Assembly: GCA_020831485.1 (NCBI GenBank)
Contig: JAFIGG010000028.1
Span: forward strand, 1-43,954
Source of the DNA: Opitutales bacterium
Lineage (GTDB): Bacteria > Verrucomicrobiota > Verrucomicrobiia > Opitutales > Oceanipulchritudinaceae
Length of the DNA: 43,954 bases
Direction of reading: 5' to 3'
Position 1 is the first letter of the stretch, and each line of letters starts with the position of its first letter. Positions 8,712-24,298 of the stretch are shown one piece after another. Under the pieces are notes generated by a model. The model was not told the origin of the DNA, searched no databases, and was given only the letters and a program-made list of their open reading frames with translations. A program made the translations under genes and the position numbers.

Positions 8712-11063
8712 CTACTCGATCGCCAGCAGCCTCGGGCCTGTTGCGTCGGTGCGCCATATGGCCTTTCGAAACCAGCCTTCCTCAGGCAAGGCGGGGCGAT
8801 CCAGGCGGATGTGGGCCAGTTCGTCGGCACGGATCCAGAGGATCAAGCGCTCTGGGAACAGCGGGTTGCGCAGGACTTCGTAAACTAAGGGTCCGTCTTC
8901 CGGATCGACCAATTCATCCAATGCCAGTTCAGCAGCTGTCCGATTGTGATGCGGACTTCCCAGAATCAGGAGATTCTGATCCAAGTCCGTGAGTTCGGCA
9001 TCTGTTTCGACACGGCATTCGGCGAAATGCATCGCTTGCCAGCTCTGCTCGAACTCAGCGACCAAACGATTCATCTGCGCTTCGTCCGACCCACTACCGG
9101 CGGTTCCGGAAACGACGGTAAAGCTATCCGCGAAAACATCGAATACGGTCGGCGTAGCGACCAGACTCGGCTGCGCTTCATTTGAAGCAGTCGGATTCTG
9201 ATCCCGACGCATTTGCGCCAACATCTCCACTAACTGCCGCAATGCCCCGTAGTGTTCCGACCAGGTCTGATGCACGCGCAGTAGCTCGACCGGATAATCA
9301 TTCGCCCTCGCTTCGTTCACAAAGCGCATGGCGACATGCAATTCTCCGTGGCCGGGCTCGCCACCATCGTGGACAATGACGATGGGCGGCCCACCGGTCT
9401 CAAAGATTGCGTCAAAGCCGTCCACCGAGCGCCGCCATTCCTGATAGGCGGGGAAGCGCCCAAAAGCGCGTTCAGACGGGAAGTTGCGCTCAAAGCCATA
9501 CATCGGGTTCATCCAGCCGATGCCGGCAAAGCGCTCAGGCATGGCCGCAATTGCGTCGATCGACAAACCCGCCCCGCTACAGCCGCCCAGTAGAGTAATC
9601 CGCCCGGGATCTATCCGGTAATGGCTCTCCACATTCGCCAGCACCTCGCGCAGGTGTGTGACTTCGCAGGGCTGTCGGGCCAGGTTATTGCGAAAGCCAC
9701 TCCACAACAAAGCCACCTGATTCGCCTCGGCAATCGCAGCCATGCGTTCAGCATCGACAATGCCGGCCATGTAGACACTGCGAATAAACGGACGCTCTTC
9801 ATAAGTTCGGGCCGGCAAGAGAACAACCATCGGCAAAGTCCCATCTCCGTCTGGGTCGTAACCTGACGGCAGATACAGTCGATAGGCCTGATCCTGAGAA
9901 TCGATATCGGAAACAAAACCACGAATTTGTAAGCCAGTGCGATCCCGATAAGGATCCTCATCCAACCCATAAGACCGCAGAACCTGCTCCAGCTCAGCCA
10001 ATGTGTAAATGAGATTGCGTTGAGCCTGCCAGACAGAGCTGGCGGTTTCCAACATGATGGCAATGCGTTCAAGCAGAACCCGGTCATTGACGTTCCCGTT
10101 TTCGGACAGGACCCGACGAGCTTCCTCCAGCCGCGTCGCCGCGGATTCCATCAAACCTCCGACAAATACCCACTCGTAATAATCCTTTGCGTTCGCAGAC
10201 ACGACGCTCCGATAAAGGCCCTCTTCCAGAAATCCGGGGATCATCCAGTATTCCCCGGCACGGGCCGTAAATTCGTGCACGACTTCAGCATCGCTGCGCT
10301 CCAGGCGAAAATCCAACTCCGCTCCCGGCGGCACACCCCGAGGGCGCAGTTCAACCCCCTCCCCTGGCGTCCACACCGCTCCCGCCCACAGGAAAGACTG
10401 CAGGCTGGCCTGTTCGCTCAGGGCGTGGTCGATGGCATCCTGCAGATTTGGCTCCGCGCGCACGCGCAGTCCCCAGTGATGCCGCAGGCGTGGAACCTTA
10501 AACAGCAGGCGGTTCTCTCCCTTGTGCAAGTCGATGCGAATGGCGTCGTCATACGGAAACAAACTCCGACTCACGGGTTGTTGATAAATCAACTCCCCAT
10601 TCAACCAGACCACCGGCCCGGCAGAGGAAGCGATCAGCAGATATACCGATTGCGCTTCGTCCACGGCCAGGGTGGTCTCAGCGAAGGCAACCGGCTGGAC
10701 CTCATCGCGCGAAGCCTGCATGCCAAACTGGTTATAAAAATCCACATACACCGTTTCGCTCAGCCTGACCCCGAAGGCATCCGGATGCTGTGCATACAAG
10801 CTGTCCGCAGGGGCCTCATCCAGAGTGTTGGCCAGGCCCCTGGCGACGAGCAACGATTCCTCCAGCCCAACCAGACTGGCCGCATCCGCATCGTAGGGAT
10901 CCTGTTCTGCATCGACCGGCAGGGGCCCTAAAAGCGTCCACTCCGTCAGGTCGAAACCAGCGGTATTCTCTGGATCCTCGCTCCGGCAAGCGGTCAATCC
11001 GAGCAGACCGATGCAAAGCCAGAAAAGGCCGAGTGTTATTTTTATATCAGTATTCATTTTCAA
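8712..11063 (-). CDS. Lipoprotein alpha/beta hydrolase with apparent Cys nucleophile
   Basis: This 783-residue lipoprotein has a lipobox LTAC with C26, an N-terminal beta-rich region (~35-205), a middle region, and an alpha/beta hydrolase domain (~375-620). The hydrolase begins YRLYLPSGYDPDGDGTLPMVVLLP. The nucleophile elbow LLGGCSGAGLS (491-501) places Cys495 where GxSxG families have serine, giving GxCxG as in dienelactone hydrolases. Asp566 (IVIVHDGG) and His604 (WSEHYG) could complete the triad. The C-terminal part (~630-783) resembles extensions seen on some esterase or prolyl-oligopeptidase-like proteins, but I cannot name it. The start overlaps the end of the YD-repeat-like gene by 17 bp, so the two are probably co-expressed at the cell envelope. 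The substrate is unknown. Confidence 0.7.
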   Translation of the reverse strand: MKMNTDIKITLGLFWLCIGLLGLTACRSEDPENTAGFDLTEWTLLGPLPVDAEQDPYDADAASLVGLEESLLVARGLANTLDEAPADSLYAQHPDAFGVRLSETVYVDFYNQFGMQASRDEVQPVAFAETTLAVDEAQSVYLLIASSAGPVVWLNGELIYQQPVSRSLFPYDDAIRIDLHKGENRLLFKVPRLRHHWGLRVRAEPNLQDAIDHALSEQASLQSFLWAGAVWTPGEGVELRPRGVPPGAELDFRLERSDAEVVHEFTARAGEYWMIPGFLEEGLYRSVVSANAKDYYEWVFVGGLMESAATRLEEARRVLSENGNVNDRVLLERIAIMLETASSVWQAQRNLIYTLAELEQVLRSYGLDEDPYRDRTGLQIRGFVSDIDSQDQAYRLYLPSGYDPDGDGTLPMVVLLPARTYEERPFIRSVYMAGIVDAERMAAIAEANQVALLWSGFRNNLARQPCEVTHLREVLANVESHYRIDPGRITLLGGCSGAGLSIDAIAAMPERFAGIGWMNPMYGFERNFPSERAFGRFPAYQEWRRSVDGFDAIFETGGPPIVIVHDGGEPGHGELHVAMRFVNEARANDYPVELLRVHQTWSEHYGALRQLVEMLAQMRRDQNPTASNEAQPSLVATPTVFDVFADSFTVVSGTAGSGSDEAQMNRLVAEFEQSWQAMHFAECRVETDAELTDLDQNLLILGSPHHNRTAAELALDELVDPEDGPLVYEVLRNPLFPERLILWIRADELAHIRLDRPALPEEGWFRKAIWRTDATGPRLLAIE

Positions 11064-12258
11064 TCGTCTCCCTTTCGGCGGATTGCATATTCACGATTCG
11101 CCCCAGGCTGTCATAGCGCAGCTGCATGCGTTCACCTTGCCGATCTGCGCTCAGCATGCGGCCAATGTTATCAAACTCATAGGACTCCAAAACCCTGCCA
11201 TTCTCATCCTCGACCCGCTCCAACTGGCCCATACCGGCCCCCATCCCACGGAAGTAAAAATTACGACGCGATTCGCCATTGCTAAACACCAGCCGCCGAC
11301 GCTGTGGATTCAGTACCATCACTGCGGAGGTTTCAGCATCGTCCCGCAGCTCAATCCGGTATCCCTTCTGGCTGATCGAAAAGACAAACCGCAGTTCATC
11401 CACCGCACTCAAATGAACCGGGGCCGGCCAACGCGAGTCTCCCCGCCACCAGCCAGGATTATACGTCCAAGCGTAGCGCTGCACTGCCCCATCCTCAGAC
11501 AGGACTGCTGTCAATAAACCGGCATCGTATTCAAAACTACGCGCGGAATCGTCCCCACTCTGCCAGCGTAGCAACTGTCCCTCCTCGCTCCATTCGAAGC
11601 GATGGCTTTCCTCCCCTTTCAAAGTCATTGCGATGGGTTGCCCCCAGTTGTCGAACTTCAAATCAAGCAGGGTTTCCCCCGCCACGCCACCCGTCAAGGG
11701 CACCAGACGCTGAATCCAGACTCCCTGGCTTTCAATCCGGAACGTGCCAAGCACCGGATGCAGGATCGATTGTAACTGACCGGCCTCATAGATCCAGCGA
11801 AGGCCATCGCTGGCGCTGATTTCGAAACGATTCGGGCTCAGCTCACGAACCCTCCAGGACCCACCCGCGCCTGCCGAGGACCGGGCAGGCCCAACCCGAT
11901 CCCGCTCAAAGCGAATCTGTCGTCCATCCGGCAGACGCCATAAATAATACTCACGACCCGATCGAACGAAATAGGAACGCAGCCCCGACAACCGCCACTG
12001 AGACCGCGGGCGAAGATCCGCATCCACCTCAATGCCATGCACCCACGTCGGCACAATTCCCAGCGCTGCGAGCTGCGGATGCTCAGCGACAACAATGCGC
12101 AAACGCAGAGTTCCATCCAATGCGATCGGATCGAATTGCTGCTCGAATTCCGTCCACTCCGGCGAGTGCCATGGCAAACGCGCGTCCGCAAATCCACAAG
12201 ACCCAGCAAGAACGCTGCATCCCAACAGGCACAGAATCCTGTAACTCCAAAATCGCAT
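11047..12258 (-). CDS. Exported YD/RHS-repeat-like protein
   Basis: This is a 403-residue exported protein. The ATG at 12258 (MRFWSYRIL...) gives a basic N-terminus, a hydrophobic core and a Cys-containing end around SCGFADA, with GAG five to seven bases upstream; a longer frame from 12309 would bury the signal peptide. The second half shows degenerate YD-type repeats such as SFEYDAGLLTAV, SYEFDNIGRMLSA and LRYDSLGRIV. There is no RHS core and no DPxGL cleavage box, so it is not a complete Rhs toxin. It sits between the ligase-like membrane protein and the lipoprotein hydrolase on the same strand and overlaps the latter by 17 bp. The role is unknown; a structural envelope protein or a decayed Rhs relative is possible. 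Confidence 0.65.
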   Translation of the reverse strand: MRFWSYRILCLLGCSVLAGSCGFADARLPWHSPEWTEFEQQFDPIALDGTLRLRIVVAEHPQLAALGIVPTWVHGIEVDADLRPRSQWRLSGLRSYFVRSGREYYLWRLPDGRQIRFERDRVGPARSSAGAGGSWRVRELSPNRFEISASDGLRWIYEAGQLQSILHPVLGTFRIESQGVWIQRLVPLTGGVAGETLLDLKFDNWGQPIAMTLKGEESHRFEWSEEGQLLRWQSGDDSARSFEYDAGLLTAVLSEDGAVQRYAWTYNPGWWRGDSRWPAPVHLSAVDELRFVFSISQKGYRIELRDDAETSAVMVLNPQRRRLVFSNGESRRNFYFRGMGAGMGQLERVEDENGRVLESYEFDNIGRMLSADRQGERMQLRYDSLGRIVNMQSAERETIENEY

Positions 12259-12353
12259 CCGTCTCACTGCTGCGTCTACGACTTCTTTTGCTATTGTATT
12301 CTCTTCCATCTTGGGGTCTTTGGGTCTTAAGCGAAGCGGGTGTGAAATTTATT

Positions 12354-13768: not shown

Positions 13769-13848
13769 TGGAAGAATGGATGGGTGGAGTGATGGAAGAA
13801 TGGTATATTGGAAGAGTGGAATATTGGAATGCTGGATATATGGGGATG
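13769..13848 (+). repeat. Octamer array 1 (TGGaagaa-type, 10 units)
   Basis: Ten consecutive 8-bp units each begin with TGG (TGGAAGAA, TGGATGGG, TGGAGTGA ... TGGGGATG). The period is exactly 8 although the other five bases vary. It is inverted relative to arrays 2-4 and directly abuts the 5' end of the ligase-like frame. Confidence 0.85.
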
Positions 13849-13940
13849 AGGCTGTTGGAGCACGGCCCTTTAGGCCGAACACAGCGACAGGGCTAACTCC
13901 TCCGCGGGAGGCAGTATAAATGTTCCTGCAACACAATTTT

Positions 13941-14004
13941 CCAACACTCCAACACTCCAACATTCCAACATTCCAACATTCCATTCTTCCACTATTCCAA
14001 CACT
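13941..14004 (-). repeat. Octamer array 2 (CCAACATT-type, 8 units)
   Basis: Eight units of 8 bp each begin with CCA (CCAACACT twice, CCAACATT three times, CCATTCTT, CCACTATT, CCAACACT). Read on the minus strand the unit is TGGAATGT-like, so arrays 1 and 2 form a large imperfect inverted repeat around a spacer of about 92 bp. Confidence 0.9.
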
Positions 14005-14109
14005 CCAGCCCACTCCCCAGTCAACCATCCAGACTCATCATATTTCAGCAATTATTGTACTTTACTTTGCGTGCAACCGTTGCCCGGCATACTCGCTTCA
14101 CAGCGTCGG

Positions 14110-14653: not shown

Positions 14654-14933
14654 GATTTAAGTGATATTCAATCACACATAGTTAAAGCCTGGATTGAGAC
14701 TCTGCTTTATCCAATCCCCCAACCAAGACAAAGCAAGACACCAGCGAGCAGAGCAAGAATAGGAGAAATATCCTTTCCGTATTGAAAGACTCTTAAAACA
14801 AGCTCCGACTCGCCAGGGAAAGCAGGACCTGGCTTTGGCGCTCCGTTCGCCCTGAAGGTCGGGCTCCAACAGGGCCCATCTCCATATATCCACCAATCCA
14901 AAATTCCATTCTTCCGACCTTCCACACATCCTC
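14654..14933. other. 280-bp gene-poor spacer with hairpin and array
   Basis: This holds a GCCC-tgaaggtc-GGGC hairpin at 14849-14864 followed by octamer array 4. Short minus-strand frames cross it; one at 14707-14937 ends in a hydrophobic segment (ISPILALLAGVLLCLGWGI), but its N-terminal half is translated repeat DNA. It may hide the remnant of a small membrane protein. Confidence 0.5.
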
Positions 14934-14936
14934 TCA
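14881..14936 (-). repeat. Octamer array 4 (TCC-phase, 7 units)
   Basis: Seven 8-bp units each begin with TCC (TCCATATA, TCCACCAA, TCCAAAAT, TCCATTCT, TCCGACCT, TCCACACA, TCCTCTCA). The array runs into the stop codon (14934-14936) of the next gene, so the array and the gene end are contiguous. Confidence 0.75.
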
Positions 14937-15386
14937 CCCCTCCCCGCGATGCTTTTCAAACGCTTGTAGGACCTTCATCAGAATCGAAACCTCATCGTCA
15001 GGATAAGCACCTTTATTCTGCTTCAGCCAATTTCGAAGCTCGGATTCAAGATGCTTCCCCAGTTCAGAATTTGGATCCAGAGGCACTCTTCTGTCGAAAG
15101 CTTCATCACCCCAATACGAGTGACCGTCCTTAGTGCGCTCAGCTCGCCCTACGGGATTTCCGTCTTCATCAAATTCCTTCCGCGGCAGAAACGACCGATC
15201 CAAATACAACACCTTTTCACCTCCTTCTTCACAGTCGAAAAACAAGGAATATGAGCCACCATCCAAAACAATCGCCCGCTTATAGAGACCGTCGTCCTGA
15301 ACACTTAACCTCAAAGACGGAACTGCTTCAGCAAATGTGCAACCGATGACAAATAAGAGAACAAGGGGATTATAGAAATTGGCCAT
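14934..15386 (-). CDS. Small secreted protein of unknown function
   Basis: This 150-residue protein has an N-terminal signal peptide (hydrophobic stretch LVLLFVIGCTFAEA) and a charged mature part containing YSLFFDCEEGGEKVLYLDRSFLPR and a helical C-terminus rich in Glu and Lys. I recognise no family. It starts 21 bp after the stop of the 231-residue secreted protein and is presumably co-transcribed with it and with the orphan Rhs module upstream. The position in an Rhs cassette suggests an immunity or accessory role in the periplasm; this is inference from context only. Confidence 0.6.
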   Translation of the reverse strand: MANFYNPLVLLFVIGCTFAEAVPSLRLSVQDDGLYKRAIVLDGGSYSLFFDCEEGGEKVLYLDRSFLPRKEFDEDGNPVGRAERTKDGHSYWGDEAFDRRVPLDPNSELGKHLESELRNWLKQNKGAYPDDEVSILMKVLQAFEKHRGEG

Positions 15387-15407: not shown

Positions 15408-16103
15408 TCATTCAGCCATCCCCTTGCTATTTCTTTCGTCAACCGCAACCTCGATAATTCTTCCATGCCTTAGACCAGTCCGTAGTCTTGATTCAAAAAT
15501 TCCCCATTCTAACTCAGAGGATTCTGGAAGAGCGACGAGCCGCCGATCCGGAACAATTATTTCCATCATATGCTCCGGGCCATAATTTCCATCCTCGAAA
15601 AGTGGCAAATAATAAAAGCTCCCTCCAATCAAAGGCTGAAGATAGGACGCAACGAAATCAACTGATTCTCTTCCATATCCCAACTCAATTCTAAAGCGGA
15701 AATAAAGAACATCAACCCCATCCGGAACCCCAAATTCAGCTCTATTTTTTCCCATCAGCATTGGCATTTCATCGGGCATATTAGTGACCCCATCCAATTC
15801 AATCCTAGCCGAGATATCTTCGACCGCCTCAAAATCTCCTGAAAACAACCCCTTTTCCACAAAGACCGGTAGCACCACATAGAGATAATACGAATCCATC
15901 GGTTCAGATCTTGCAGAAAGCTGATACTCAACATAGATTGACACGTGTGCATCCGTATCGTCAAGAACCACAACGCAAAGCTCAGCTTCTTTTCGGGCTT
16001 TATAGAAAGTTCCTTTATCCAGTATAACAATTGGATTTCCAGCAACTTGGATTACCCCGAAGATCAGCCCCAAGATTAGACTATTCCTTATCGTCTTCAT
16101 CAT
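15408..16103 (-). CDS. Secreted protein, candidate immunity protein for the orphan Rhs tip
   Basis: This 231-residue product begins with a Sec signal (MMKTIRNSLILGLIFGVIQVAGN) and has a beta-rich mature part with no recognised domain. It starts 15 bp after the stop of the orphan Rhs C-terminal module. In Rhs, CDI and related polymorphic-toxin loci the gene immediately 3' of each toxin tip usually encodes its specific immunity protein. A periplasmic location would suit protection against a peptidase-like tip acting outside the cytoplasm. The sequence itself does not show immunity activity. Base composition is AT-rich like the neighbouring cassettes. Confidence 0.6.
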   Translation of the reverse strand: MMKTIRNSLILGLIFGVIQVAGNPIVILDKGTFYKARKEAELCVVVLDDTDAHVSIYVEYQLSARSEPMDSYYLYVVLPVFVEKGLFSGDFEAVEDISARIELDGVTNMPDEMPMLMGKNRAEFGVPDGVDVLYFRFRIELGYGRESVDFVASYLQPLIGGSFYYLPLFEDGNYGPEHMMEIIVPDRRLVALPESSELEWGIFESRLRTGLRHGRIIEVAVDERNSKGMAE

Positions 16104-16118
16104 TCATATAGTTATTAT

Positions 16119-17078
16119 TTATTCCATGTCCCAATCCCAATTGTCCCACACCCAGGAGCCACCGCTTTGATATGACAATTCACCAGCCACATTCACGTAT
16201 ACCTCTCTTGAATAAATATATACAGTTCCGCTTCCTAATTGCTCGGCAACCGAGCTTCCGTAGAATCCCGAGCCAACATCACAAGCTAAGATTCTTACGT
16301 CCATCCCGGGGGTATAATTCGGATGGTTAGAAATCATATTCGCGAGTTCCGAAGCAGGGATCATGTTATTATAAGCGTCTCCGACCCCTTGGCTGTTTCC
16401 GTGTGCCCCGACAACAAACACATTCGAGTCGGGGTCAATGTTACTAAATCCAGTGTATTCATTAGTCCAATCCCCAACCAATATCAAGTCCGCGCTCAAC
16501 CCCATCGGATCCACCCACCGTAGCGGATTATTGAACACATACCGATAGATATTCACATCGCCCGCATCAAAGCGGATCGGATCCGTTTGCACAAATCGCC
16601 CCAGATCCGCTGAATAGATCCTATTGCGGTAGTCGTAGAGGCCCAGTTCGGGGAGGTATTCGCGGCCAGTGAAGAGAAAGCGGTTGTTAATGGCGGAGGT
16701 CTCGAGAAAATCATCGGATCCGTCAAAAATGGTGACGTTTCCGTAGACGTCATATTGATAGCTCTCAACGACCACCCCATTGACATCCGTCAACTGGGTC
16801 ACGCTGCCAAGGGCGTCGTGGTGGTGGAAGAAGGTTCCATGGTCGTTGACGGTGAGGATGACTTCGTCGATTCTCAGACCATGGACGTAGCGGGCTTTCA
16901 ATTGGCCGCTAGCATCGTATTCAGCGATGAGGCTCCACTCGTCGTAGACGAGGAAAGTGGTTTCGCCATTGTAAGGTCGACTGGTGACGCCGGCTATCGC
17001 TCCTTCACTCAGAATTAAACCAATAAGGTCCATGCATTTATAGTGGAAACTCACTCGTTCTTTAGTTTTCTGTGTCAA
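16119..17078 (-). CDS. Orphan Rhs C-terminal module with clan-CD-peptidase-like tip
   Basis: This 319-residue frame lacks the signal peptide and nearly all YD repeats of a full Rhs protein. Residues ~31-194 reproduce the conserved Rhs core of the neighbouring full-length protein up to the DPMGL cleavage box (190-194), and then a unique 125-residue tip begins. The tip has NVFVVGAHGNSQG with His226 and DVRILACDVGSG with Cys266. A hydrophobic strand-His-Gly block followed by a hydrophobic strand-Cys block is the layout of caspase-like (clan CD) cysteine peptidases. The first ~30 residues match nothing, and the start at 17078 is uncertain. It is most likely a silent or recombination-ready tip cassette. 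Confidence 0.75.
   Translation of the reverse strand: MTQKTKERVSFHYKCMDLIGLILSEGAIAGVTSRPYNGETTFLVYDEWSLIAEYDASGQLKARYVHGLRIDEVILTVNDHGTFFHHHDALGSVTQLTDVNGVVVESYQYDVYGNVTIFDGSDDFLETSAINNRFLFTGREYLPELGLYDYRNRIYSADLGRFVQTDPIRFDAGDVNIYRYVFNNPLRWVDPMGLSADLILVGDWTNEYTGFSNIDPDSNVFVVGAHGNSQGVGDAYNNMIPASELANMISNHPNYTPGMDVRILACDVGSGFYGSSVAEQLGSGTVYIYSREVYVNVAGELSYQSGGSWVWDNWDWDME
16496..16990 (-). repeat. Rhs core duplication, copy in orphan module
   Basis: This roughly 500-bp stretch is a near-identical copy of about 17621-18115 in the full-length rhs gene, at a constant offset of 1125 bp where I compared them. Differences are mostly scattered single bases. The match breaks off upstream of the VTSR codons and downstream of the DPMGL codons, so it covers the conserved core but neither tip. 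Confidence 0.85.
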
Positions 17079-17149
17079 TGGTCAAATCGTTTCATTGCAC
17101 AAATCTCTTCCCTTCGATCCAAGGAGGCAGGAGCCTGGTAATTCGATCA

Positions 17150-17296
17150 CTATTTGGGGAGCAGTGATAACCATCGTAAAACTCTAATTAAAATGTAGGA
17201 TAGTATACCCACACAAACCAAGATTCCAAGTAGGTTGAGGGCCTGAAAGACCAAAATTGTTTTGGGGATATCGAATTGTATGGTGATGTCATTCAT
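17150..17296 (-). CDS. 48-residue membrane protein overlapping the rhs stop; candidate immunity protein
   Basis: ATG at 17296 lies inside the last codons of the full-length rhs gene (stop at 17289-17291), an 8-bp overlap that favours translational coupling. The 48-residue product starts MNDITIQFDIPK. It has one hydrophobic segment (about residues 14-38, including LNLLGILVCVGILSYILI) and ends with basic residues and a TAG at 17150. Genes directly 3' of Rhs tips usually encode cognate immunity proteins, and small membrane proteins are common where the toxin attacks the envelope. It is absent from the orphan cassette, which has a different partner. Function is inferred from position only, but the coupling makes a chance frame less likely. 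Confidence 0.55.
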   Translation of the reverse strand: MNDITIQFDIPKTILVFQALNLLGILVCVGILSYILIRVLRWLSLLPK

Positions 17297-20200
17297 CTTG
17301 ATCAAAATAGTTTCCGTAATAATGGTATGGGGTAGTCGCCGTACTGCCGAATGGAGTCCCCCAGTTACTTGAGGATATTATAAGAACAAAAGAATAGTTC
17401 CCATTAGAGCCGGAGGATACATCTTGAACCGAAACACTAAGTGATCCTCCAACTCCATAACCAAATCCACCCGAAGTTCCACCTACTCCCCACTGATCGT
17501 GTGTGTCCCCATCGATAGTTACACTGTATGAACCGTCCGCTGTAGGCGCGACAACTATATCACCTTGTAAATTTAGGTCGACCCAACCCGTGCTGGTTAC
17601 ATTGTAGGGGATCCTGACCTCTAACCCCATCGGGTCCACCCACCGCAAAGGATTATTAAATACGTACCGATAGATATTCACATCTCCCGCATCGAAACGG
17701 ATTGGGTCGGCTTGGATAAATCGGCCCAGATCCGCTGAGTAAATTCGATTGCGGTAGTCATATAGATCCAGCTCTGAAAGATATTCGCGGCCAGTGAAGA
17801 GAAAGCGGTTATTAATGGCGGAGGTCTCAAGGAAATCATCGGAGCCGTCAAAAATGGTCACGTTTCCGTAGACGTCGTATTGATAGCTCTCAACGACCAC
17901 GCCATTGACATCCGTCAACTGGGTCACGCTGCCAAGGGCGTCGTGGTGATGAAAGAAGGTTCCGTGGTCGTTGACGGTAAGGATGACTTCATCGATTCTC
18001 GGACCGTGGACGTAACGGGCTTTCAATTGGCCGGCTGCATCGTATTCAGCGATGAGGTTCCAGTCGTCGTAGACAAGAAAAGTGATTTCACCGTTGAATG
18101 TCCGACTGGTGACACGGTTGCGGTAGTCGTAGGTAAAACGGGCTTCGATGGCAGGGCCAGAGACTGATATCAGACGATTCATGGCGTCGTAGCGCAAGCC
18201 GAGGCCATTGTAACGACTGAGGTTGCCGTTTTCGTCCCATTCGGGCTCTTCAGTGCTCGCACTGCCGTCGGAGAAAATACTTTGAACCCGGGTATACTGA
18301 TTCAATTCATTGGCTTCGTAGGTGGTGACACCGCTGGAGCTGTCTTCAATGCGTTCGCGGTTGCCGACGGCGTCGTAGTCGAACCAGGTGCTGCGTTCGG
18401 GACTGTCACCCAGTCCAAACTGATGAACTTCCACCAATTGGTTAACCGCGTCGTAGCCGTAGGCTTCGGCACGGTCTTCGGCGAAAATTGTAGCAGTGCG
18501 GTTGCCAGCGGGATCGAACTGGTATTCCTCGCTGGAGATCGCTTGTTCGGCACGACTGCGCTCGCGGTAGATAAGCTGGCCAACGGCGTCGTATTCAGAG
18601 GCGCTGAAAACCTGATTTGCATAGGGCTTGCGGATGACCCGACCGCTTGCATCCCGCTCATAGCGCACAAATGGATCCGCATTGGGAGCACCGATGGCCT
18701 CGACTTCACCGCGGGCATTGTAAGCGTAGGCGATTTCGGTGCCGTCAGGGTACCGCAACGTATCGCGCTTGCCGCCGGGGGTATGGCTATAGGCAACCTT
18801 GCGGGCTTCGCCTGCAGCAAAGATTTTCTGGGTCTCACTGATTAGGAGACCGGCGGCATCGTAGGCGTAGCGATGAAGGCTTTCACCTTCCTGCTCGACC
18901 TCCAACAAACGACCCATGGCATCGTAGCTGCGGGATTCTGCCGGGGAACCATCATCCCAGGCGCTGGCAATCAGGCGATTGCGGACGTCGTAAGAGCGGG
19001 TGCGGACATTTCCGGCGCGATTCACGTAGGTGATTTCATTGCCATTGGCGTCGTATGTCCAGCTTTCTGTTGATCCATTCGGATATTGTTTGGCAATTTG
19101 CCGGCCAAGTTCGTCGTATTTGAAACGGTAATGGTTGCCGCGATCATCAATGATTGCCGTACGCCGACCATGACTATCGTAAAGGTAGCGCGTCACATAG
19201 CCCATGGCGTTCGTTTCGGCGATCAAACGCCCTCGGGTGTCATAGCTGTAGAGGGATTTATGGCCGTTGGCATCTATTGTCTCGGTTCGACGACCCGCTT
19301 CGTCGTAGCGGTAGTGGGTTTCGTGGCCGAGGGCAGACACACTTTTAAGGAGGCGTCCGCGTTCATTGTAGGCACGCAGGGTGACACTTTCCCGTGCATC
19401 GGTGGTCGCAATCCGGCGGCCTACCGGATCGTAGGCATGGCGGATGGTAGCGGCGTATTCGGTGCCGGGTGCCACGGTTTGCTCAATCAGTTGTCCACGT
19501 TCATCATAAATCCATACCGTTTCCTCACCATCGGGCTGCTGTTGCCAGACCGGTTGGTAACCGGTGGCAGTGCCGATCTCGCCATAGGCGATTTCCGTCC
19601 GGGCACCAGCAGCATTGACGATGGCTGTCCGGCGGCCAAAGCGGTCATATTCATAGGTGGTGGAATGGCCAAGGGCATCAAGGCTCTCAACCACCTGACC
19701 CCACTCGTTATAAATAAAACGTTCTTCAGCCCCGTCCGGATGCTTCACCACAGTGCGTTGCCCTGCGTCGTTGTATGCGAAGTGGGTGCTGTTGCCGAGG
19801 GGATCGGTAACTTCGACGAGATTGCCTCGCTCATCGTATGCAAACGAGCTAACGTTGCCAAGGGCATCAATGCGCTGCTCGAGTTGACCTGCGGCATTGT
19901 AGGTATTTGTCTGGCGCACACCCTGACGCTCCTGCTCAACGGGCTGACCAAAGTCATTATAGCGGGTCCAGTCCCGGGCTCCATCCGGATGCACGGTCGC
20001 TGTGCGACGGCCGTCGGAATCGCGTTCAAAGACGGTTGTGTGGCCCAGTTCATCGGTTTCACTCAGGATGCGGCCCTGGCTGTCGTGCGTCCAGCTACGG
20101 CTGGTGCCGTCGAGGTAGATTTCACGCACGACGTTCCCATGCACATCCCGCTCGTAAACGAATACCTGCCCAAGGGGATCCGTTTCCGAAGTACGGTGAC

Positions 20201-21290
20201 CGCGACCATCGGCATCGTAGCCGTATTGATGCGCGTGGCCCAGGGGATCGACTTTTTCTTCGAGATTTCCACCGGGCAGGAAAGATTCATAGGTCGCGGC
20301 ACCCTCATTGTCGCGGCGAACAAAACCACGAGGGTCCGAACCTTGGAACAAAGCGTCGATGAGCTGGCCATCTTCGGCATCATAGACCCGTGCTACCTGA
20401 CCGAGGGCGGCTCCCTCGCCCTCCTGATAGGCAAACTGACGTCCCCTCACTTCAGCATCCGCGCGAGGGTCGTCGATTTCGGTCAACAGCAGTCGGCGAC
20501 CATCAGCTGGCGCAGCATATCGATAGCTGGCCTCGTATCCGCCCGGGTAGGAGGCTCCAACTAAGATCGGATAATTGCTGTTATCGACGGAATCGTAGTG
20601 ATAAACAACCTCATCGCCGTTGCTTCCAAGCACACCGGCAATCACTGTGTGTACGAGCCCATCTGTCCCCTCTATACTTTGATAGCCAATCTCCAGCCAG
20701 CGGCCAGCGGGCTCATGAATACGGTGTAGACGGCCATCGCTCCACTCAAAGCTCCAGCTCAGACCAAAGTCATCGTTCAGGCTCTCCAATTGGTAACCCT
20801 GTCCGCCTGAAAGACGGCGGAAGCTGACCGATCCGCCCTTGGGGAAATTGACCGTCACACGGTCGGAACTCCATTCCATGCGTTCACGCGCAGCGGCCTC
20901 CGGCCACCAGTCTTCAGGGCCGACCTCGGTGAAGCGCTGAACCAGGCCTTCGGGCCGACGCAGGGACAGCACCCGGTGGCCTTCACTGTTGCGGCCAGCA
21001 TCGACCAATTCCCATTGCCAGTTGTGCGACCAGTTGTGTCCGAGGCCAAAATGGGCTTCAAGCCGGGTTGAACGACTATTGGCAATCCGCCCCCAGGAGA
21101 GGCCGTGCAGGCCGACCGCACCGGCAATGTCGAGGTCGTGGGTTTGAAAGGATAGATTGCCGGTATAAGCATCCAGCGTGCCGGCGGAACGGGAGACGCC
21201 GTGATCGGCATCGTTACCCGGATAAGGTCCGGCAGCGTGGAGACAAACGGCACAGAAGAATACGAGGAGGCTTGCGACAGTGTATTTCAT
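17289..21290 (-). CDS. Full-length Rhs/YD-repeat protein with variable C-terminal tip
   Basis: This 1333-residue protein is exported by a Sec signal (MKYTVASLLVFFCAVCLHAAG). An N-terminal region (~25-300) is followed by about 800 residues of YD repeats, which form the hollow cocoon shell known for Rhs/Tc proteins. The RHS-associated core ends in NNPLRWVDPMGL at ~1223. The last 110 residues (1224-1333) form a unique tip: hydrophobic and polar strands, a Gly-rich run GVGGTSGGFGYGVGGS, and a Tyr-rich end. The tip matches no toxin family I recognise. Known Rhs proteins cleave at the DPxGL box and release the tip. The tip-encoding end overlaps a 48-residue membrane protein gene, and a membrane-anchored protein gene lies 41 bp upstream of the start. 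Confidence 0.92.
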   Translation of the reverse strand: MKYTVASLLVFFCAVCLHAAGPYPGNDADHGVSRSAGTLDAYTGNLSFQTHDLDIAGAVGLHGLSWGRIANSRSTRLEAHFGLGHNWSHNWQWELVDAGRNSEGHRVLSLRRPEGLVQRFTEVGPEDWWPEAAARERMEWSSDRVTVNFPKGGSVSFRRLSGGQGYQLESLNDDFGLSWSFEWSDGRLHRIHEPAGRWLEIGYQSIEGTDGLVHTVIAGVLGSNGDEVVYHYDSVDNSNYPILVGASYPGGYEASYRYAAPADGRRLLLTEIDDPRADAEVRGRQFAYQEGEGAALGQVARVYDAEDGQLIDALFQGSDPRGFVRRDNEGAATYESFLPGGNLEEKVDPLGHAHQYGYDADGRGHRTSETDPLGQVFVYERDVHGNVVREIYLDGTSRSWTHDSQGRILSETDELGHTTVFERDSDGRRTATVHPDGARDWTRYNDFGQPVEQERQGVRQTNTYNAAGQLEQRIDALGNVSSFAYDERGNLVEVTDPLGNSTHFAYNDAGQRTVVKHPDGAEERFIYNEWGQVVESLDALGHSTTYEYDRFGRRTAIVNAAGARTEIAYGEIGTATGYQPVWQQQPDGEETVWIYDERGQLIEQTVAPGTEYAATIRHAYDPVGRRIATTDARESVTLRAYNERGRLLKSVSALGHETHYRYDEAGRRTETIDANGHKSLYSYDTRGRLIAETNAMGYVTRYLYDSHGRRTAIIDDRGNHYRFKYDELGRQIAKQYPNGSTESWTYDANGNEITYVNRAGNVRTRSYDVRNRLIASAWDDGSPAESRSYDAMGRLLEVEQEGESLHRYAYDAAGLLISETQKIFAAGEARKVAYSHTPGGKRDTLRYPDGTEIAYAYNARGEVEAIGAPNADPFVRYERDASGRVIRKPYANQVFSASEYDAVGQLIYRERSRAEQAISSEEYQFDPAGNRTATIFAEDRAEAYGYDAVNQLVEVHQFGLGDSPERSTWFDYDAVGNRERIEDSSSGVTTYEANELNQYTRVQSIFSDGSASTEEPEWDENGNLSRYNGLGLRYDAMNRLISVSGPAIEARFTYDYRNRVTSRTFNGEITFLVYDDWNLIAEYDAAGQLKARYVHGPRIDEVILTVNDHGTFFHHHDALGSVTQLTDVNGVVVESYQYDVYGNVTIFDGSDDFLETSAINNRFLFTGREYLSELDLYDYRNRIYSADLGRFIQADPIRFDAGDVNIYRYVFNNPLRWVDPMGLEVRIPYNVTSTGWVDLNLQGDIVVAPTADGSYSVTIDGDTHDQWGVGGTSGGFGYGVGGSLSVSVQDVSSGSNGNYSFVLIISSSNWGTPFGSTATTPYHYYGNYFDQDE
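17621..18115 (-). repeat. Rhs core duplication, copy in full-length rhs
   Basis: This is the second copy of the core segment also present at about 16496-16990. Because both copies are in the same orientation, recombination between them would delete 1125 bp. That would remove the current tip and the 48-residue partner and join the long Rhs body to the orphan tip in frame. Confidence 0.85.
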
Positions 21291-23643: not shown

Positions 23644-23907
23644 ATGAAAACAACGAACATCACTGTCCGGGTCGACGAGCAAACCTATCAGAATGCTCGC
23701 ATAGCAGCGGCGAAGCGCGGGACTTCAGTCAGTGCGATGGTTCGGGAGTTTCTTGTTTCGCAGAGTCAGCAAGAGGAGAATCCGGAAGTTCAAAGGGTTG
23801 CCGAACTTCAAACCCTCTATCGCAAGGCTGAAAAACGGGCGAAGAACACGAAGCGTACAACAAAACCACTAAAACGCGACGAGATCTATGCCGAACGCCT
23901 TCGTTGA
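23644..23907 (+). CDS. vapB: VapB-like ribbon-helix-helix antitoxin
   Basis: This 87-residue protein has an N-terminal ribbon-helix-helix DNA-binding domain: the strand NITVRVDEQTY, then the helices QNARIAAAKRG and SVSAMVREFLVSQ (residues ~5-43). A basic, flexible C-terminal half would wrap the toxin. It overlaps the PIN-domain gene by 20 bp, the classic antitoxin-first arrangement. Two perfect 17-bp palindromes directly upstream fit autoregulation. The symbol denotes the VapBC class only; I cannot assign a subfamily. Confidence 0.88.
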   Translation: MKTTNITVRVDEQTYQNARIAAAKRGTSVSAMVREFLVSQSQQEENPEVQRVAELQTLYRKAEKRAKNTKRTTKPLKRDEIYAERLR

Positions 23908-24298
23908 TACAAATATCCTGGTATACGCCGCAGAGGAAAGCGTTCCCACCTGCCGAAAAACCGGCATTGCCCGTGAGTTGTTGCTGCAGCCCAATCTACA
24001 CCTCTCGATTCAGGTGTTAAACGAATTCACTGCCAACGCACGGCACCCAGGCAAACTGAACCTAAGCGTGGAGGAGGAAGAGGACTGGTTAAGCCAATGG
24101 TTACGATTGACCATCCTACCGCTGACCATCGAAACCTACCTCAATGCTTTGCGCATTCACCTGAATCATGGCCTTTCCCACTGGGACAGCCTGATTGTCG
24201 CTTCCGCAATGCTCGCCAAGTGCGGTGTGCTTTACACAGAAGACCTCAACCCTGGCCAGGAGATTCAAGGCGTTCGCGTTATCAATCCTTTTGCTTGA
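23888..24298 (+). CDS. vapC: VapC-like PIN-domain ribonuclease toxin
   Basis: This 136-residue PIN-domain protein has the acidic residues that bind Mg in VapC nucleases: D7 in FVDTN, E46 in VLNEF, D100 in HWDSLI and an acidic residue in YTEDL (~118-119). The GLSHWDSLIVASAM segment is typical of the family. It would cleave RNA when released from the antitoxin encoded by the overlapping upstream gene. All catalytic positions appear intact, so the module is probably active. Such pairs often sit near accessory regions, here between the Rhs locus and the lut operon. Confidence 0.9.
   Translation: MPNAFVDTNILVYAAEESVPTCRKTGIARELLLQPNLHLSIQVLNEFTANARHPGKLNLSVEEEEDWLSQWLRLTILPLTIETYLNALRIHLNHGLSHWDSLIVASAMLAKCGVLYTEDLNPGQEIQGVRVINPFA

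Follow-up and report, generated by a model that had tools for sequence, protein, structure and literature searches.

A probable displaced tip behind a full-length rhs gene in an Opitutales bacterium, and the recurrence of this layout across the order

Why does a single stretch of DNA from an Opitutales bacterium encode the conserved core of an Rhs protein twice in direct orientation, each time followed by a different tip? The window, i.e. the whole stretch analyzed (43,954 nt), is contig C85 of an assembly of 142 contigs that is 97% complete; the nearest named relatives of one protein encoded in it come from Verrucomicrobiota MAGs of the Opitutales/Puniceicoccaceae. The first-pass annotation had regarded the two cores as a nearly identical tandem duplication forming a ready tip-switching cassette. 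Our analysis indicated with good confidence that this is an ordinary polymorphic-toxin locus, in which a Sec-exported YD-repeat (Rhs) carrier with its current tip is accompanied by a displaced tip. The features of the locus are as follows.

17289..21290, minus strand: main rhs gene, 1333 aa (open reading frame with Pfam and NCBIfam matches)
17622..18113, minus strand: core copy of the main gene (VTSR...DPMGL, 164 codons; gapless alignment with 16497-16988)
17292..17621, minus strand: tip 1, the 110-aa C-terminal tip that the main gene now carries (from the translation)
17150..17296, minus strand: open reading frame for a 48-aa hydrophobic product, overlapping the main gene at its 3' end (the same stop/start overlap occurs at the second rhs locus)
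16119..17078, minus strand: orphan (putatively displaced) rhs fragment, an open reading frame of 319 codons from TTG (Rhs_assc_core, E 7e-21)
16497..16988, minus strand: core copy of the orphan fragment (gapless alignment with 17622-18113)
16122..16496, minus strand: tip 2, the 125-aa tip carried by the orphan, bearing an invariant His and an invariant Cys (distantly related sequences occur in other families of the class)
15408..16103, minus strand: open reading frame starting about 15 nt past the orphan stop; its 231-aa product has a leader at the N-terminus

The main gene product is composed, in order, of a Sec-type leader (recognized by eye at the N-terminus), DUF6531, RHS/YD repeats, the Rhs-associated core and a variable tip; Pfam returned RHS_repeat at 304 bits plus DUF6531, and NCBIfam returned Rhs_assc_core (E 2e-19). 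This is the build of a full-length Rhs protein, with repeats, a core closing at DPxGL and a variable tip behind it. Tip 1 matched no family in Pfam or NCBIfam, and its comparison with 388 genomes of the phylum gave a single weak, uninformative match. A search for the type VI secretion (T6SS) sheath gene VipB (PF05943) matched the E. coli control and found nothing in this genome, which is 97% complete. Delivery of the main Rhs protein by a T6SS is unlikely, since the genome lacks VipB and the protein carries a Sec-type leader, as seen by eye. Scans of the locus for promoters and terminators revealed no excess over shuffled sequences. Elsewhere in the window, a 420-aa protein encoded downstream of the rhs locus (11047-12309, minus strand) has an RHS-repeat match of 40.8 bits and a leader-like N-terminus, with neither core nor tip, and a putative VapBC-like pair of an antitoxin and a PIN-domain toxin was recognized by eye near the rhs locus (23644-24298, plus strand).

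Alignment of the two cores confirmed the direct repeat with the geometry previously described: 492 nt without gaps, in a single frame, at an offset of 1125 bp (16497-16988 versus 17622-18113). The copies share 87.8% of their nucleotides, above the lower limit of 85% set in the first-pass annotation, and about 92–93% of their amino acids, and a blastn E-value of 5e-171 places the similarity far beyond chance. The limits of homology are sharp, running from the VTSR codons to DPMGL with unrelated sequence on both flanks, and no similarity between tip 1 and tip 2 was detectable over their 110 and 125 aa, in agreement with the claim that unrelated tips follow the two copies. The orphan consists of a partial core with the same closing motif and an unrelated tip, lying downstream of the main gene. 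The description of the cores as nearly identical was overstated: their longest exact run is 47 bp, and dS reaches 0.63, which marks an old divergence. With dN at 0.034, dN/dS is about 0.05, indicating strong purifying selection between the two window cores. The divergence most likely took place inside working Rhs genes, with recombination later placing the two cores side by side, because dN/dS is about 0.05 while dS is 0.63.

Two further patterns in the core pair were considered and dropped. The middle of the alignment appeared more similar (about 95%) than its ends (about 80%), as a gene-conversion mosaic might, and a permutation scan over the variable third positions of the window core pair gave p of about 0.4. 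The offset of 1125, which equals 3 x 375, was likewise set aside as evidence of switching; it says nothing on the matter because any exchange between aligned cores preserves the frame at every offset, and in several relatives the offset is not a multiple of three. Core exchange at the window locus may be rare, given that no significant mosaic was found and that no exact run exceeds 47 bp. The assembly of the window shows one arrangement, and no recombinant form is seen in it.

A small open reading frame lies directly 3' of each of the four tips in the genome, and three of the four encode hydrophobic products. We infer that the 48-aa product is a candidate immunity protein for tip 1 and that the 231-aa protein is a candidate immunity protein or partner of tip 2, presumably exported. 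Neither matched an immunity family or any other known family, and neither these two proteins nor the 150-aa and 143-aa proteins had homologues in the other fetched loci. Short repeats, imperfect and in both direct and inverted orientation, occur in the spacers flanking the 143-aa open reading frame, at about 13778-14018 and 14836-14945 of the window; they read as repetitive peptides in several frames.

A search of the genome with the orphan revealed that contig C8 bears another main-plus-orphan pair, whose genes lie in the interval L006 (G000:C8:8000-18780).

L006 6552-10448, minus strand: main rhs gene of the second locus
L006 4827-5762, minus strand: orphan of the second locus

At this locus the cores match perfectly for about 532 nt (L006 about 5751-5220 versus a copy 1638 bp further on). 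The identity is lost suddenly in the final stretch ahead of the tips and starts, on the other side, where the orphan joins the end of a GxxExxY gene. Judged from this pattern, an exchange or duplication through the core took place recently at the second locus. Core identity between the two loci is 81–84%, below the 87.8% within the window locus, and on these comparisons the window pair diverged long ago relative to the pair of the second locus. The genome has just two GxxExxY genes, and they flank the orphan of the second locus (L006 3242-3625 and 5707-6048, minus strand); one of them runs at its end directly into the beginning of the orphan core, and a short stretch of similarity is present where they meet. 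A further putative VapBC-like pair was recognized by eye near this locus (L006 1872-2558, minus strand).

Relatives of the core were recognizable in 29 of the 55 genomes searched, often several on one contig and strand. Twenty further loci were fetched and the open reading frames of their arrays were mapped by tblastn. In most of them, direct core repeats of 85–98% identity end at or near DPxGL before different tips. Such repeats occur in 18 of 22 loci from 12 genomes, the window and C8 included, a count that is uninformative on frequency because nearly all of the fetched loci were picked for at least two close core hits. Arrays with three or four core copies were observed in four genomes (G010, G018, G051 and G053), and inside a single array the tips are unrelated to one another, apart from one weak similarity. 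One genome, G029, contains three arrays (L045, L046 and L047) with 95–97% identity within each locus and no nucleotide match between loci, suggesting locus-specific homogenization of the cores. The window locus is typical, since repeats of the same form recur across the order, and a main gene with an orphan appears to be a common state of rhs genes there. The earlier suggestion that the layout may be special to this kind of organism did not hold: it recurs within the same genome and in many genera of the order.

Our preferred explanation of the window locus is displacement. An incoming tip would have recombined through the core into the 3' end of rhs, leaving the previous tip and part of its core downstream as the orphan. 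A later exchange between the cores could then re-load the orphan tip and delete tip 1 together with its neighbor; the geometry proposed for this crossover, which would place the orphan tip on the long Rhs body in frame at the cost of tip 1 and the 48-aa neighbor, agrees with our coordinates. Displacement as the origin and the toxin and immunity functions are what we infer here, and the switching step is, by analogy with a related system, possible at the window locus. The tip-switching reading of the first-pass annotation was accordingly right in kind, and its suggestion of rarity was wrong.

Other origins were weighed against displacement. Local duplication of the rhs 3' end in tandem, with tips that later diverged or were replaced, would fit the higher identity within the locus (87.8%) than to the cores of the other locus (81–84%), and a recent local copy would likewise produce the roughly 532 identical bp of the second locus. 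A dS of 0.63, however, leaves no room for a recent copy in the window, and the tips are wholly unrelated with an abrupt change at DPMGL, whereas a copy of the whole 3' end would include the tip; we regard this origin as improbable. The duplication named in the first-pass annotation thus gives way to divergence in working Rhs genes followed by displacement, which dS and dN/dS favor. A mis-joining of reads from different rhs genes or strains is still far less probable: the assembly is fragmented (142 contigs) and rhs cores are repetitive, but the genome's four core copies differ from one another in sequence, each of the two loci carries the layout independently, and other genomes of the order share it, including G051, which is assembled in three contigs.

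The present role of the orphan allows more than one reading. It may be a decaying remnant without such a role, with a core that looks conserved only because its separation is functionally recent, a reading we consider possible though doubtful. Its start (TTG, GTG and ATG are candidates) has no convincing ribosome-binding site, given the weak duplex energies at the start sites, and no leader; this is a weak argument, as the start of the main rhs gene also lacks a strong site, and it is opposed by the intact 319-codon frame, the intact partner gene and the dN/dS of about 0.05. The same continuous frame with its three candidate starts could instead encode a small Rhs protein that is separately translated and works alone, and RHS elements of Salmonella, one of them an orphan, are reported to be toxin–antitoxin modules (PMC7043789). 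This is very unlikely here, as the orphan has neither an export signal nor a strong initiation site, and the 30 codons preceding its core match nothing elsewhere in the window or L006. A broader proposal is that the Sec-exported Rhs loci of the order, without a T6SS, are active tip-switching arrays maintained by repeated core exchange within each locus, with the second locus caught just after an event and the flanking GxxExxY pair perhaps related to cassette mobility; we consider it unlikely.

Distant relatives of tip 2 form the ends of Rhs open reading frames of 1700–1850 codons, after DPxGL, at three loci (L065, L066 and L069; BLASTP against L066, E 2e-7), and relatives also occur on shorter core-bearing open reading frames. 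By these contexts, tip 2 is a genuine class of Rhs tip. H33 and C73 (P0001 numbering) are invariant in all eight sequences, with the dyad spacing HG ... (S/A)C; in the alignment (A2), a few residues of the L068 row are wrong at the extreme N-terminus, and the His and Cys columns are unaffected. Family members gave sub-threshold Pfam matches to Peptidase C13, DUF4347 and Peptidase C80 (E 0.01–0.02), families that belong to or resemble clan CD. Tip 2 is probably a caspase-like (clan CD) peptidase domain, as far as these motifs and matches can indicate. The family reached no curated family above cut-off, neither tip 2 nor its family had a meaningful match among PDB sequences, a contig scan of genomes with the tip 2 family found no relative, and a single-sequence AlphaFold model of tip 2 had a mean pLDDT of 49. 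Behind five of the relatives comes a small protein whose N-terminus looks like a leader or like that of a lipoprotein. Across the window (16122-16496) and seven fetched loci (L063 and L065-L070), His/Cys-invariant Rhs tips are usually followed by a small exported-looking protein; the family may represent a caspase-like class of tips not yet described, with partners in the periplasm.

The locus closely resembles that of Salmonella Typhimurium LT2, where the main gene and the orphan share 522 bp at 95% identity and recombine (Koskiniemi 2014, PMC3967940). In both, a full-length rhs gene and its neighbor are followed by an orphan tip with about 500 bp of core and its own partner gene. The LT2 cores are more similar than the 87.8% of the window pair, and the joining of the orphan tip to the main gene by core exchange was shown by experiment in LT2 only. 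What also sets the window locus apart is the Sec-type leader of its main protein, together with the negative search for a T6SS sheath gene. Orphan rhs-CT/rhsI modules occur commonly (PMC3150448); as described for orphan cdiA-CT/cdiI and rhs-CT/rhsI modules (Poole 2011), the window orphan is a tip with a partial conserved region, no convincing initiation signals and a small gene next to it. For CDI modules the boundary is VENN and delivery is by CdiB, whereas here the boundary is DPxGL and the carrier is a YD-repeat protein with a Sec leader.

More generally, recombination with stand-alone cassettes diversifies polymorphic toxins in all major lineages, Tox-Caspase domains occur among them, and Verrucomicrobia are among the phyla listed (PMC3482391). 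Variable C-terminal domains swapped onto a constant carrier are shared by those toxins and the window locus; in contrast to the toxins cataloged there (Zhang 2012), the tip 2 family has no curated family above cut-off. The published cases cover the arrangement fully, and the known mechanism is neither overturned nor added to. For seeking switching in read data, the second locus, with its roughly 532 identical bases, is a better place than the window locus. The layout tested experimentally in Enterobacteriaceae is now extended to a little-studied order of Verrucomicrobiota.
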